Assembly: GCA_003554665.1 (NCBI GenBank)
Contig: PWGY01000071.1
Location: 1-8,563, forward strand
Direction: 5' to 3'
From: Bacteroidales bacterium
GTDB lineage: Bacteria; Bacteroidota; Bacteroidia; Bacteroidales; UBA7960
Length of the DNA: 8,563 nt
Positions 2,391 to 6,775 of the stretch are shown here, in pieces (position 1 is the stretch's first letter; every line of letters starts with the position of its first letter). A program made the translations under genes and the position numbers. The notes beneath the pieces are model-generated. The model was not told the DNA's origin. It saw only the letters and a list, made by a program, of their open reading frames with translations, and did not search any database.

Positions 2391-3116
2391 TCAATGATAT
2401 TGTTGTACATGATAAACAAGCGACAAAAGTAGGTAAAAAATCAGGAACAAAGGTACTCCCGACAATCCAAATATGACCAGCAGCAGCAGGCAGCCGGCAA
2501 GAAAAACATATATATACCGGTTATCTTTCCAGCCGAGGGATTTAACTTTCAGAGAAAACATCCGCACCGGCGAAACCAGCAGCCAGGAAATGATCAGGGT
2601 CAGCCCGAGGCCAAACCACAATTTTGTGGTAAGCGCTTCAAGCAGCCGAAAAACAAAGCTGTCGGGATCGGCATAGGTCAGCACAAAGGGGATGGAGGCA
2701 ATCAGCAAAGCACTGGCAGGTGTGGGTAACCCACGAAAATCACTTTGCTGCTCCTCGTCAATATTGAATCGTGCCAGGCGGAGACCGGAAAAAACCGCAA
2801 CCAGGAATGCAAGCGAGGGCAAAAGGATATGTGGCTGCTCAGGATGAGGCTTTTGAAACGCCTCCTGCAAGTAAAAGAAAAGAATAGTGGCGGGAGCCAC
2901 CCCAAAGCTGACCAGATCAGCCAGAGAATCCAGCTGCTGTCCGATTGGGGAGCCTGCACGAAGCAACCTGGCCGCAGCACCATCCAGAAAATCAAGGAGT
3001 GCACACAAACCGATAACTACAGCCGCCACCCCGGGTTGCCCCTGAAGGGTGATTACGATGGCTACGCAACCAAGAAACAGGTTAATCAGCGTGATGGTAT
3101 TGGGGATGTGTTTCAT
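2391..3116 (-). CDS. pssA: CDP-diacylglycerol-serine O-phosphatidyltransferase
   Basis: This 241-residue membrane enzyme joins CDP-diacylglycerol and serine to make phosphatidylserine, the precursor of phosphatidylethanolamine. The CDP-alcohol phosphatidyltransferase motif is complete: Asp42-x2-Asp45-Gly46-x2-Ala49-Arg50-x8-Gly59-x3-Asp63-x3-Asp67. The first segment (MKHIPNTITLINLFLGCVAI) and the later GLRLARFNI and FRGLPTPASALL stretches are typical of the PssA branch rather than PgsA. About six to eight hydrophobic segments fit a polytopic inner-membrane protein. The psd decarboxylase gene, often next to pssA, is not here. It heads a group with purS and yraN. Its start is preceded at one base by a long array of degenerate 7-nt repeats, so its leader is most unusual; no promoter box or Shine-Dalgarno site was recognised there. 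Confidence 0.93.
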   Translation of the reverse strand: MKHIPNTITLINLFLGCVAIVITLQGQPGVAAVVIGLCALLDFLDGAAARLLRAGSPIGQQLDSLADLVSFGVAPATILFFYLQEAFQKPHPEQPHILLPSLAFLVAVFSGLRLARFNIDEEQQSDFRGLPTPASALLIASIPFVLTYADPDSFVFRLLEALTTKLWFGLGLTLIISWLLVSPVRMFSLKVKSLGWKDNRYIYVFLAGCLLLLVIFGLSGVPLFLIFYLLLSLVYHVQQYH

Positions 3117-3117
3117 A

Positions 3118-3369
3118 GTTGGAAATTAGAGGTTGGAAGTTGGAGGTTAGAAGGTGGAGGCTGAAGGTTCGAATGTTGAAGCTGGCAGCCCAAAGGTCGA
3201 AGCTGGAAGATCAAAGGTGAAAGCCCGAAGGTTGGAGTTTGAAACCCGAAGGTCGGCACCCGAAGCCGGAAGTCCGAAGGTTGGGGCCCGGAGTCCGAAG
3301 GTCGGGGCCCGGAGTCCGAAGGTTGAAAACGGGGACTTCGGGCCGGAGCTTCGGGGCCGGAGGGCCTGA
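3118..3369 (-). repeat. Degenerate in-phase heptamer array (36 x 7 nt) in the pssA leader
   Basis: From 3118 the plus strand divides without any insertion or loss into 36 units of 7 nt, for example GTTGGAA, GCTGGAA, GCCCGAA, GTCCGAA, GGTCGGG, GCCCGGA. Unit position 3 is always a pyrimidine, and positions 6 and 7 are purines in nearly every unit. In the pssA message each unit reads roughly TTC-SRR-C. Units next to pssA are A/T-rich (GTTGGAA, GTTAGAA), and those far from it are G/C-rich. A 21-nt higher-order repeat is clearest at 3272-3334 (GTCCGAA-GGTYGGG-GCCCGGA). Function is unknown: it may be a translation or mRNA-stability leader, a protein-binding array, or selfish low-complexity DNA. The last five units (from 3335) are the most diverged, so the far boundary is approximate. 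Confidence 0.88.
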
Positions 3370-3393
3370 AACCGGTTCCCCGGCTTCAGGCCC
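3362..3393. other. Strong hairpin capping the heptamer array
   Basis: GGGCCTGAA (3362-3370) pairs perfectly with TTCAGGCCC (3385-3393). Inside, CCGG (3372-3375) can pair with CCGG (3380-3383) across a 4-nt loop, with one mismatch between the stems. It lies between the protease stop codon and the array. No T run follows on either strand, so it is not a standard intrinsic terminator. It could be an mRNA 3' or 5' structure or the terminal repeat of an element that carries the array. The rest of the gap (3394-3510) holds only short ATAC-like repeats near 3436-3453 and nothing else I could identify. Confidence 0.65.
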
Positions 3394-3510
3394 ATCGCCC
3401 GCAATACCTGCATCAGTGTGTTCCGCATGTTGCGCATACATTCATACATACATCCCTCACAATCATATATTCAGGCAATCCAGTTGACGACTTCCCCGAA
3501 CCAGCCTGAT

Positions 3511-6500
3511 TTACGGGGTTCTCACCGGATAGGGAGGCACCGGATGAATCTCCTGGTCGTAATCTTCCATGCGTTCCAGTGCCTCTTCAATGGCCCGCTG
3601 AAGTTGCTGGTCAATGCCATCAAACTCCTTGGCCGGGTCGTTTTCCACATAAATATCAGGCTCTACCCCAATTCCTTCAATGATCCATTCTTCACCGTGA
3701 ATGTCATAGGGTGCAAATTCGGGTTTGGAAAGGGTCGCACCATCAATAAACGGGAGTGTTCCGCGGATACCAACCACCCCACCCCAGCTTGTGGTACCAA
3801 TCAGGGGGCCAAGGCCAAGCTTCTTAAACTGGTAAGGGAACAAATCACCATCTGAAGCAGAATACTTATCAACCAGGCAGATCTTCGGCCCCAGGTGGAT
3901 CTGGGCGGGCCGTGTCCCCGGCGCCTGATTCCTGGCCATGGACAACCCGGTCAGCTCCCTTGACAAACGCTCAATCAACATGGGCGACACATTGCCACCA
4001 CCGTTTCCGCGCACATCAATAATCAGTGCCTCCTTACGAAGCTGCGGATAAAAGTGTTTCACAAACTCGTTCAATCCGGCAGGGCCCATATCCGGTACGT
4101 GAATATAACCCACCCTGCCATCGGTGGCCTCATTTACTTTCCTGATGTTTTCCTGCACCCAGTTATAGTAGTAGAGGTCCGACTCATCTGCTATGGGCTT
4201 GACAATCACCTTTCTGGCACCATCAGCCCCGGGTGAATCATTTACGGTCAGCTCCACCTGCTGCCCGGCTTTACCAACCAACGACTCATAAATATTATTC
4301 ATCCTGTCGGTTGAGTGTCCGTTCACTTCAATGATATAATCTCCTTCCGACACATCCACGCCCAGTTCGGTCAGCGGCGACCTTCGTGAAGACTGCCAGT
4401 TCTCTCCTTTCAGTATCCTGTCAATCCGGTAATAGCCTGACTCATGCTGGCTCAATTCTGCACCAAGCAACCCCATGGGGATGCGCTCCACTTCCGGCAC
4501 ATCACCACCACCGACATAGGCATGACCGACGTTCAGCTCACCCACAAGCTCGCCCAACACATAGGTCAAATCCAGGCGGTTGTTCACATAGTCAACCAGG
4601 GGGCGGTATTTTTCCTTCATGGCCTCCCAATCTACCCCATGCATATTGGGTGCATAAAAGAAATCACGCATCTGACGCCAGGTTTCCTCGTATATCTGCA
4701 TCCATTCTTCCCGGAGGTTCACCCAAACTTTCATATTGGAGAGATCCACAAAGTCATTGACCGAAAAAGAAGAATGCGGCAGGTCGATCACACTGTACTG
4801 CCCCCTGGCACGGACCATCATTTTGCTTTTGTCCGCACTGATGTCATATCCGTTGATACCGGCAAGTTCAGTTTCGCGGCGGTTTTCCATATTGAACATC
4901 ATCAGGTTTGAACCCTTCATGTAATAGATATTGTTACCCACCGTCTGAATATTTCCATAACTGGCAACATCAACCGGCAGGTCGGCAATCCGGTGTTTAA
5001 TGTTCTCACGGTCAATTTCCACCCGCAGCTCATCATTATTTCCATTCCCGCCTCCGCTGTTGTTGTCGTCGTTCAGCTTCACCTCATCATTGCGGTATTC
5101 CAGAAATGAGGGCACATCCTCACGAAGGGTCACAAAATAGATCCGGCTCATGGTTGAGTAGGCGAAGTTCCACTCCACACTGCTGTAAATGGGATTAAAG
5201 TCGCGGTTCGAAACAAAGAACAAATATTTCCCCTGATCGCAGAAAGAGGGGCTGGAAGACACATACCATCCATCAGTCACGGGAAAACCGTCCTGACTTT
5301 CCGTATCGAAAACAAAAATCCTGTTATAATGCTCCAGTTCAGGGCGGGTATAGCTAATCCAGCGGCCATCAGGCGACCAGTCATATTGCCTTATCTCCCC
5401 TGATTCAGCCTGGTCCACCATTGTAACCTCCTTTGATTCGATATCCACATATTGCAGCCTGAGCTTCTTGTCTGACCACATGATCTTTTCCGAATCCGGT
5501 GACCAACTCAGACTGTATTTATAAGTATCGGCATCTGAAGTTAACTGCACTGGTTCTTCCCGGCCACATTGCGACCTCATATAGATTTCATCCTCCCCGG
5601 TTTCATCACTGATATAGGCGATATAACGGCCATCGGGAGACCAGGCCACGTTGCGTTCGTGAACGCCGGAAGTTTCCGTAAGATTGCGGGTGATGCCGCT
5701 GCTTGCCGGCACACTCCATACATCTCCGCGGGCACCAAAGGCAATCCGGCTACCGTCAGGTGCCAGCGAAGCACTGCGGATCATCTCAGAAGCATCCTTT
5801 TGCTGATCGCGGCCCATGGCCAGATCTTCGGCAATTTTTATCTCCAGTCGCTCCACAGCCTCAGTGGCAAGGTCAAAAAGATAAAGATACCCGCCATTTT
5901 CAAAAATGATCACATCATCACCCAGTGAAGGGAACTTGACATCAAACTCCTCGAAATGGGTCACTTTCCTGGTCTGCTCACTGGTCAGGTCATACACAAA
6001 CAAATTGGCACGTCCGTCGCGGTCCGACACAAAATACACCTTGTCATCAACCCACATCGGAAAAACATCCTGCGACTGATTTTCGGTCAAATTCACCGTT
6101 GAACGGTCAGAAAGGTCATGCAGCCATACATCATCTGCCATCCCGCCTTCATAATATTTCCAGGTTCTGAACTCCCTGAAAACCCGGTTGTAAACAAAAC
6201 GATCCCCGTCATCCGCATAACTGATCCATCCACCCTCCGGTACCGGCACCTGTTCAGGCATCCCTCCATCGATATTCACAAGGAACAACTCCCCTTTAAA
6301 AGCATTAAAGGAACGTTTACGGGTACGGAAAACAATATTTTCATTGTCCTTCCACCCCATTACTATGTTATTGGGCCCCATCCGGTCGGAGAGGTCGTCA
6401 CGGCCAAGGGTGGCAGTGTAAGTTAGCCGCTCAGGGACGCCTCCACTTGCAGGCATCAGGTAAACTTCAGTATTTCCGTCATACTGGCCGGTAAAGGCAA

Positions 6501-6732
6501 TATGCTCTCCGTCAGGACTGAAGCGGGCAAACATCTCATAACCCGGGTGGCTGGTCATTTTACGGGCCAGCCCGCCATCCCGGCCTACTGTGTAAAGATC
6601 ACCTGCATAGGAAAACACTACCTGGTCTCCGTGTACGGCCGGAAAACGTAACAAGCGTGCATCCTCAACCACCTGTGCCGAGGCGATAAAGGGCAATAGA
6701 ACACAAATCAGTATTGTAAACAGTTTTTTCAT
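3511..6732 (-). CDS. Secreted tricorn-like S41 family peptidase
   Basis: This 1073-residue protein resembles tricorn protease, a large peptidase that trims oligopeptides. A signal peptide (residues 1-19, ending IASA before Gln20) predicts export, unlike cytoplasmic archaeal tricorn. Two beta-propellers follow (about 25-300 and 315-650) with PD40/TolB-like repeats at 71, 323, 364, 410 and 452 (pattern xSPDGxxIxY). A Gly/Asn/Asp linker lies near 555-567, a helical C1 domain at about 670-745, a PDZ domain at about 746-848, and the S41 core at about 855-1025. Active-site equivalents are His737 (LNVGHAY), Ser960-Asp961 (SASDGD), Gly911 in RGNGGG, and Glu1019 (WIIEGIGVEPDI). The Ser before the catalytic His in tricorn is Gly736 here. 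The start at 6732 is chosen over an ATG at 6753 because the signal peptide begins MKKLF. It is flanked by large gaps, so it is probably transcribed alone. Confidence 0.92.
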   Translation of the reverse strand: MKKLFTILICVLLPFIASAQVVEDARLLRFPAVHGDQVVFSYAGDLYTVGRDGGLARKMTSHPGYEMFARFSPDGEHIAFTGQYDGNTEVYLMPASGGVPERLTYTATLGRDDLSDRMGPNNIVMGWKDNENIVFRTRKRSFNAFKGELFLVNIDGGMPEQVPVPEGGWISYADDGDRFVYNRVFREFRTWKYYEGGMADDVWLHDLSDRSTVNLTENQSQDVFPMWVDDKVYFVSDRDGRANLFVYDLTSEQTRKVTHFEEFDVKFPSLGDDVIIFENGGYLYLFDLATEAVERLEIKIAEDLAMGRDQQKDASEMIRSASLAPDGSRIAFGARGDVWSVPASSGITRNLTETSGVHERNVAWSPDGRYIAYISDETGEDEIYMRSQCGREEPVQLTSDADTYKYSLSWSPDSEKIMWSDKKLRLQYVDIESKEVTMVDQAESGEIRQYDWSPDGRWISYTRPELEHYNRIFVFDTESQDGFPVTDGWYVSSSPSFCDQGKYLFFVSNRDFNPIYSSVEWNFAYSTMSRIYFVTLREDVPSFLEYRNDEVKLNDDNNSGGGNGNNDELRVEIDRENIKHRIADLPVDVASYGNIQTVGNNIYYMKGSNLMMFNMENRRETELAGINGYDISADKSKMMVRARGQYSVIDLPHSSFSVNDFVDLSNMKVWVNLREEWMQIYEETWRQMRDFFYAPNMHGVDWEAMKEKYRPLVDYVNNRLDLTYVLGELVGELNVGHAYVGGGDVPEVERIPMGLLGAELSQHESGYYRIDRILKGENWQSSRRSPLTELGVDVSEGDYIIEVNGHSTDRMNNIYESLVGKAGQQVELTVNDSPGADGARKVIVKPIADESDLYYYNWVQENIRKVNEATDGRVGYIHVPDMGPAGLNEFVKHFYPQLRKEALIIDVRGNGGGNVSPMLIERLSRELTGLSMARNQAPGTRPAQIHLGPKICLVDKYSASDGDLFPYQFKKLGLGPLIGTTSWGGVVGIRGTLPFIDGATLSKPEFAPYDIHGEEWIIEGIGVEPDIYVENDPAKEFDGIDQQLQRAIEEALERMEDYDQEIHPVPPYPVRTP

Positions 6733-6775
6733 AGTGCAAAGGTTTTGGATCATTGAACAAATATCAATCAGGTAG

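Follow-up and report, generated by a model that had tools for sequence, protein, structure and literature searches.

The stretch of degenerate heptamers directly in front of a pssA-like gene in a Bacteroidales contig is probably one member of a dispersed repeat family, grown by slippage or unequal exchange, filtered for orientation by selection and carried by its gene as a passive leader. Our comparison of genomes from the Bacteroidota shows arrays of this kind at many loci. They hold their 7-nt register, what a given locus carries differs from relative to relative, and the nearer gene end tends to be found on the 5′ side of the purine strand. The array in front of pssA looks like a general intergenic feature rather than a switch made for this gene. 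Throughout, the window is the whole stretch of DNA that was analysed (contig PWGY01000071.1, 8,563 nt), and coordinates without a locus label refer to it.

Results

The pssA-like gene (2391–3116, minus strand) encodes a CDP-alcohol phosphatidyltransferase (Pfam CDP-OH_P_transf), and its ATG directly adjoins the first base of the array at 3117. Counted from there in steps of seven, 36 heptamers follow and end at 3368, with a pyrimidine at position 4 of all 36 units (T in 22, C in 14) and purines in 35 of 36 units each at positions 7 and 1 and in 34 of 36 at position 6. These are the 36 phased units of the earlier note, which had counted from 3118 and had correctly described a pyrimidine at position 3 throughout (position 4 in our register) and purines at positions 6 and 7 (ours 7 and 1) in nearly all of them. 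The note had also proposed autocorrelation at lags 7 and 21 as a check. Identity was 0.512 at lag 7 (shuffle mean 0.282, z 8.2), 0.552 at lag 14 (z 9.3) and, above the value for lag 7, 0.625 at lag 21 (z 11.8); at none of the three lags was it reached by any of 2000 dinucleotide shuffles, which rules out a chance origin of the heptamer signal. As expected from the degeneracy of the units, Tandem Repeats Finder reported a patchwork of periods, with period 7 only at 3117–3158, period 14 at 3118–3160 and 3336–3362, and several period-21 pieces between 3117 and 3325. A cyclic, 7-state HMM in which phase slips were permitted returned 3117–3327 (minus strand) as one array with zero slips and excluded 3328–3369, a degenerate and G+C-rich continuation in the register of the earlier note. 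The claim of 36 units without indel thus stands as far as the register goes, which runs through 3368, while the last six units are weaker than had been implied.

On the plus strand the array has purine sense, with AGNTNGA-type units. Since pssA lies on the minus strand, its leader RNA is the pyrimidine strand, with TTCNANC-type units; the description as a leader therefore holds for the position beside the pssA start and fails for the strand, the leader RNA being the complement of the strand described. Within the HMM array, the G+C content rises from 0.47 in the third next to the gene to 0.67 in the distal third, in agreement with the note's A/T-rich units near the ATG and G/C-rich units far from it. 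The end of the leader is unfolded, yet no more so than its own shuffles (z 0.58), so that no selection on structure is shown at the pssA locus. Among Rfam families only a partial tRNA gene was matched in the window at the gathering threshold (RF00005; 1–44, minus strand, cut by the window edge), and the promoter motif TANNTTTG was absent from the 484 nt before pssA. At its distal end the array meets an inverted repeat (3362–3393, identified by eye and common to the related locus L001), which is possibly the terminator of the upstream gene, a tricorn-type protease (3511–6753, minus strand; PD40, Tricorn_C1, PDZ_Tricorn and Peptidase_S41 domains).

A 100-aa open reading frame (3147–3449, minus strand) begins upstream of the array and continues through it. 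Could the array be the body of a small minus-strand protein built of 7-residue repeats? Most of the array is free of stops in this frame, and by eye L001 resembles the window in the portion ahead of the array; but L001 has no array in this frame, the related locus L002 has neither part (by eye), and heptamer arrays readily yield open frames because 21 nt preserves the frame. We regard a coding repeat as extremely improbable.

When genome contigs were scanned with the pssA protein as query, 29 related loci were recovered, 28 of them with upstream sequence; no pssA relative was confirmed in viral contigs. The three closest loci (91, 86 and 85% identity) belong to Bacteroidales MAGs, which, to judge from their isolate names, come from sediment samples. 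In none of these 29 loci did we detect an array reaching 42 nt, and a permissive run over them added only a remnant in L002 and, in L005, a hit of 24 nt on the downstream side of pssA. The array thus does not belong to pssA as a conserved component. Upstream of pssA, L001 shares with the window the inverted repeat and the bases beyond it and then carries different repeats rich in AACCAACAACC (by eye). In L002 we found another hairpin, the 30-nt heptamer remnant (L002 1972–2001, in the sense of the window array) and then AACCAACAACC-type repeats (hairpin and repeats by eye). The remnant hints at an older heptamer stretch, and with two close relatives compared upstream, loss in them and gain in the window both fit. 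A third contig, L003, terminates inside pssA, at 1–3, and is thus uninformative on the array; its end near the expected repeat position may reflect an assembly break at a repeat. The AACCAACAACC motif, joined to G+C-rich hairpins, forms a second intergenic repeat family that replaces or adjoins heptamers (by eye) and was seen upstream of pssA in L001 and L002, near 7700–7840 in L083 and after 7288 in L089.

These loci bear on the proposal of the earlier note that the array is a leader controlling membrane-lipid synthesis. The array takes up everything between the inverted repeat and the pssA start codon, as a dedicated regulatory leader might; but no full array is present at the readable related pssA loci, the window array matches no known RNA family at the gathering threshold, and similar arrays adjoin many other, unrelated genes. 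Control specific to pssA is therefore not supported, and we consider a dedicated leader very improbable. The note itself had named absence of the array from the pssA locus of close relatives, together with random intergenic placement elsewhere, as arguing against a pssA-specific role; a full array was indeed absent from the loci read, whereas placement and orientation elsewhere proved strongly non-random.

Used as a query at a loose limit (E≤10), the window array matched all five genomes behind the nearest pssA loci, with best E values of 5.7e-23 in G001, 1.7e-13 in G003, 6.5e-11 in G005, 7.1e-7 in G004 and a weak 0.005 in G002, the genome behind L002. At least 13 of 79 relatives of G001 (G001 included) matched the window array at E≤1e-4, and at least 10 of 296 genomes of the phylum (G001 included) matched another array at E≤1e-5. 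Tandem intergenic 7-nt units are dispersed over these genomes; the suspicion that similar arrays are scattered in the genome is borne out in relatives. Their consensus, from a PWM, is AG[GCT]T[AGC]GA with free drift at three unit positions, and genomes have dialects such as AAGGTCG-type units in G027 and AGTTAGA-type units in G010. As had been claimed for the window, the register is kept while the bases drift: 94 of 113 distinct arrays have zero phase slip under the HMM that permits slips. In stretches around BLAST hits, lag 7 yielded 11 arrays in G001 and 4–6 in G003, lag 14 yielded 11 and 3, and the other lags from 4 to 15 yielded 0 to 2. Among lags 7, 14, 21, 28 and 35, the best one in the 44 arrays with 84 nt or more was 7 in 17, 14 in 10, 21 in 9, 28 in 1 and 35 in 7, a spread that suggests that in many arrays whole blocks of units have been duplicated. 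At orthologous loci of G001 and G003, arrays were present on both sides. Nearly all arrays analysed were located through BLAST hits. In stretches chosen by contig number instead, there was no array in 179,325 bases of G003 and there were four arrays of 43–62 nt in 143,460 bases of G010, so the arrays are sparse.

An origin of the array from plasmids or phages was set aside: blastn with the window array (E≤0.001, low-complexity filter on) gave no match in plasmid and phage collections, and two exact patterns matched 0 and 1 stretches in IMG/VR, the single one (L178) being without an HMM array. Several arrays of G001 (L061, L063, L065, L067, L069 and L071) are preceded or followed by a short GACCCC...GGGGTC-type hairpin and by tandem copies of a CACATGTTACT-type motif. 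Furthermore, a flank like gacacacagNNNgatgattat is common to arrays of four genomes, G004, G005, G010 and G013 (L033, L036, L037, L112, L123 and L175); two of these loci, L123 and L175, have a purine-sense array with a pyrimidine-sense one immediately behind it, as in a composite element.

For the placement of arrays relative to genes, we determined the flanking genes of every array with a simple open-frame criterion (a minimum of 90 codons; for a frame overlapping the array at its start, the first ATG beyond the array was used) and asked which gene end was nearer. Across 113 distinct arrays, 88 had called genes on both sides, and in 75 of these 88 the nearer gene end lay on the 5′ side of the purine strand. 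The first set comprised 61 arrays after duplicate sequences were dropped from 84, and 17 without a called gene on both sides were removed. A first gene caller gave 37 of 46 with this polarity (29 of 33 for abutting arrays) and the revised one 36 of 44 (27 of 29 abutting), with median distances of 9.5 nt on the purine 5′ side versus 147 nt. The second set, from loci collected after the pattern was seen (52 arrays, 8 removed for the same reason), gave 39 of 44 (p=1.4e-7), median distances of 10.5 versus 135.5 nt, and 25 of 26 among arrays within 20 nt of a gene end. It partly shares genomes with the first set (15 arrays from G010, 22 from G027, G041 and G047); polarity held in 9 of 11 two-sided arrays of G010, in 16 of 18 of the other three genomes and in 14 of 15 from genomes outside the first set. 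When genes of at least 150 codons were required, the counts were 27 of 37 (p=0.008) and 28 of 35 (p=0.0005) in the two sets, and 22 of 24 and 21 of 22 for abutting arrays. These p-values overstate independence, because several arrays share a genome and four orthologous locus pairs of G001 and G003 were counted apart.

Between co-directional genes, the upstream stop was the nearer gene end for 37 of 42 purine-sense arrays and the downstream start for 14 of 17 pyrimidine-sense ones (both sets; Fisher p=4e-7), and the rule also held in 13 of 15 convergent and 11 of 14 divergent gene pairs. Leaders are therefore pyrimidine-sense and trailers purine-sense. Most abutting arrays follow stop codons (38 of 52), and in 18 of 57 cases the array starts within the last codons of the gene. 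The window array obeys the rule, lying 0 nt from the pssA start versus 183 nt from the next called frame. Genes abutted at their starts are diverse, with Pfam matches in nine of the ten tested; they include genes for a HisIE-type protein, an Era-like GTPase (MMR_HSR1 and KH_2; both names assigned from domains), FtsX, a sulfatase, an epimerase and PD40 proteins. We found no report of such polarity in Bacteroidota in our literature search, and one may still be in print.

Over the 14 start-abutting arrays, start codons (ATG, GTG, TTG) number 0.76 per 100 nt in pyrimidine versus 5.81 in purine sense, and folding amounts to −9.4 versus −15.6 kcal/mol per 100 nt. The lower G+C content beside the start codon, noted for pssA, extends to other arrays: among those of at least 63 nt, G+C was lower beside the gene in 10 of 12 start-abutting versus 7 of 27 stop-abutting arrays (Mann-Whitney p=0.009), and under a looser start-type definition it was lower near the start in 11 of 14 unequal pairs (Wilcoxon p=0.16).

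Discussion

We propose, from one genome per species, that arrays grow and shrink by whole units through replication slippage or unequal exchange, that point mutation makes the units drift, and that selection filters the sites and orientations in which arrays persist. Beside start codons, pyrimidine-sense RNA would be tolerated for its few start codons, little G and less structure; purine sense would place many extra start codons and purine runs before the gene. For pssA this would mean a passive leader with weak structure, favourable to the initiation of translation, rather than a dedicated regulator. Such a selective filter at start codons is plausible. It would cover the start side only, and the purine-sense trailers, on the side where most abutting arrays lie, fall outside it. 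Moreover, one consensus at many loci needs a dispersal route or repeated seeding, and we found none.

The arrays might instead be a translation element common to all array-bearing genes, pssA among them, with pyrimidine-sense units binding ribosomal protein S1, a cold-shock protein or a similar RNA-binding protein that recruits ribosomes. Start-side arrays are indeed pyrimidine-sense and close (15 of 31 pyrimidine-sense arrays lie within 20 nt of a start, versus 2 of 56 purine-sense ones), and the parts of MacGregor (2015; PMC4679880) compared here propose such proteins for TAACTGA repeats. Nevertheless we consider this unlikely: the RNA has the opposite sense after stop codons, the units drift freely at three positions, the array-bearing genes are diverse, and the array is absent from related pssA loci.

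Alternatively, polarity might be a matter of origin and not of selection, if purine heptamers were added by a directional process that works away from gene ends, much as a strand is extended at its 3′ end. A single rule would then fit the start and stop sides alike, and in L122 two arrays (862–909 and 1798–1848), 2 and 4 nt away, bracket one gene (FtsX by Pfam) with the purine strand running outward on both sides; in the parts of the literature compared, the same rule is reported from two other phyla. Against this, 79 arrays of at least 63 nt show no clear gradient in unit quality (in 44 of 79 the third at the purine 5′ end had the higher score, p=0.06) or in self-similarity at lag 7 (p=0.73), and no in-phase residue was found beyond array ends (n=103, p=0.23). 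We hold such a process to be improbable, as we do its wider form, in which the one polarity of Bacteroidota, Xanthomonas and Nostoc would stem from a common directional DNA synthesis or repair that adds 7-nt units outward from gene boundaries; by analogy, the purine strand would run 5′ to 3′ away from the gene like the G-rich strand of telomeres. The pssA case carries a warning, namely that a repeat beside a start codon need not be gene-specific control.

Comparison with known heptamer repeats

Cyanobacterial STRR are repeats with a 7-nt period, and they and the heptanucleotide-rich long simple sequence repeats are reportedly near-perfect. Our arrays share the period with both, whereas their units drift. 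The long repeats were described by Mrazek (2007, as related in the parts of PMC4679880 and PMC4692102 compared here), where slippage was proposed as their source.

A second kind are the TAACTGA direct repeats. According to the parts of MacGregor (2015; PMC4679880) compared here, they occur in Beggiatoaceae, Cyanobacteria and some Bacteroidetes, many of them just before starts, and some Bacteroidetes carry long heptamer arrays which close relatives lack between the same genes. The likeness to our family lies in heptamer units, start-adjacent position and long arrays that relatives lack. However, the TAACTGA unit is near-invariant and of another sequence, is not what the window array is built of, and contrasts with units that drift; purine-strand polarity at both gene ends is not described for it in those parts of the paper.

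The closest counterpart is found in Rehm et al. (2015; PMC4692102), who, in the parts compared here, describe G-rich heptamers (GGGAATC and GGGGA(C/T)T) in Xanthomonas and Nostoc. In xanthomonads the 5′ neighbouring ORF is 28 nt away versus 160 nt for the downstream one, whatever the direction of the ORFs; the Nostoc heptamers are distributed likewise, and their function is described there as still to be found. As far as those parts go, both families consist of intergenic, dispersed 7-nt units beside functionally mixed genes, vary between relatives at the same locus and obey one rule of placement, with the array closer to its 5′ neighbouring ORF (75 of 88 arrays in Bacteroidota); in ours the G-richer strand likewise lies close to that ORF, upstream antisense or downstream sense. 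The repeats of Rehm et al. contain tracts of three or four G and adopt quadruplex structures in vitro, whereas the Bacteroidota consensus has single G or GG and matches neither GGGNATC nor GGGGAYT with G-tracts of at least three, and the Bacteroidota arrays are degenerate and often longer. Without G-tracts of that length, they work like the Rehm repeats and belong to a different sequence family. On this partial comparison, the Bacteroidota arrays are a degenerate variant of gene-end heptamers of the Xanthomonas and Nostoc kind. The placement and strand rule of quadruplex-forming heptamers thus recurs, at similar distances, in a degenerate family of another phylum; as it holds in a family whose consensus lacks three-G runs, the polarity is probably not a property of quadruplexes, and its general cause, mutational or selective, is open to testing on public genomes.
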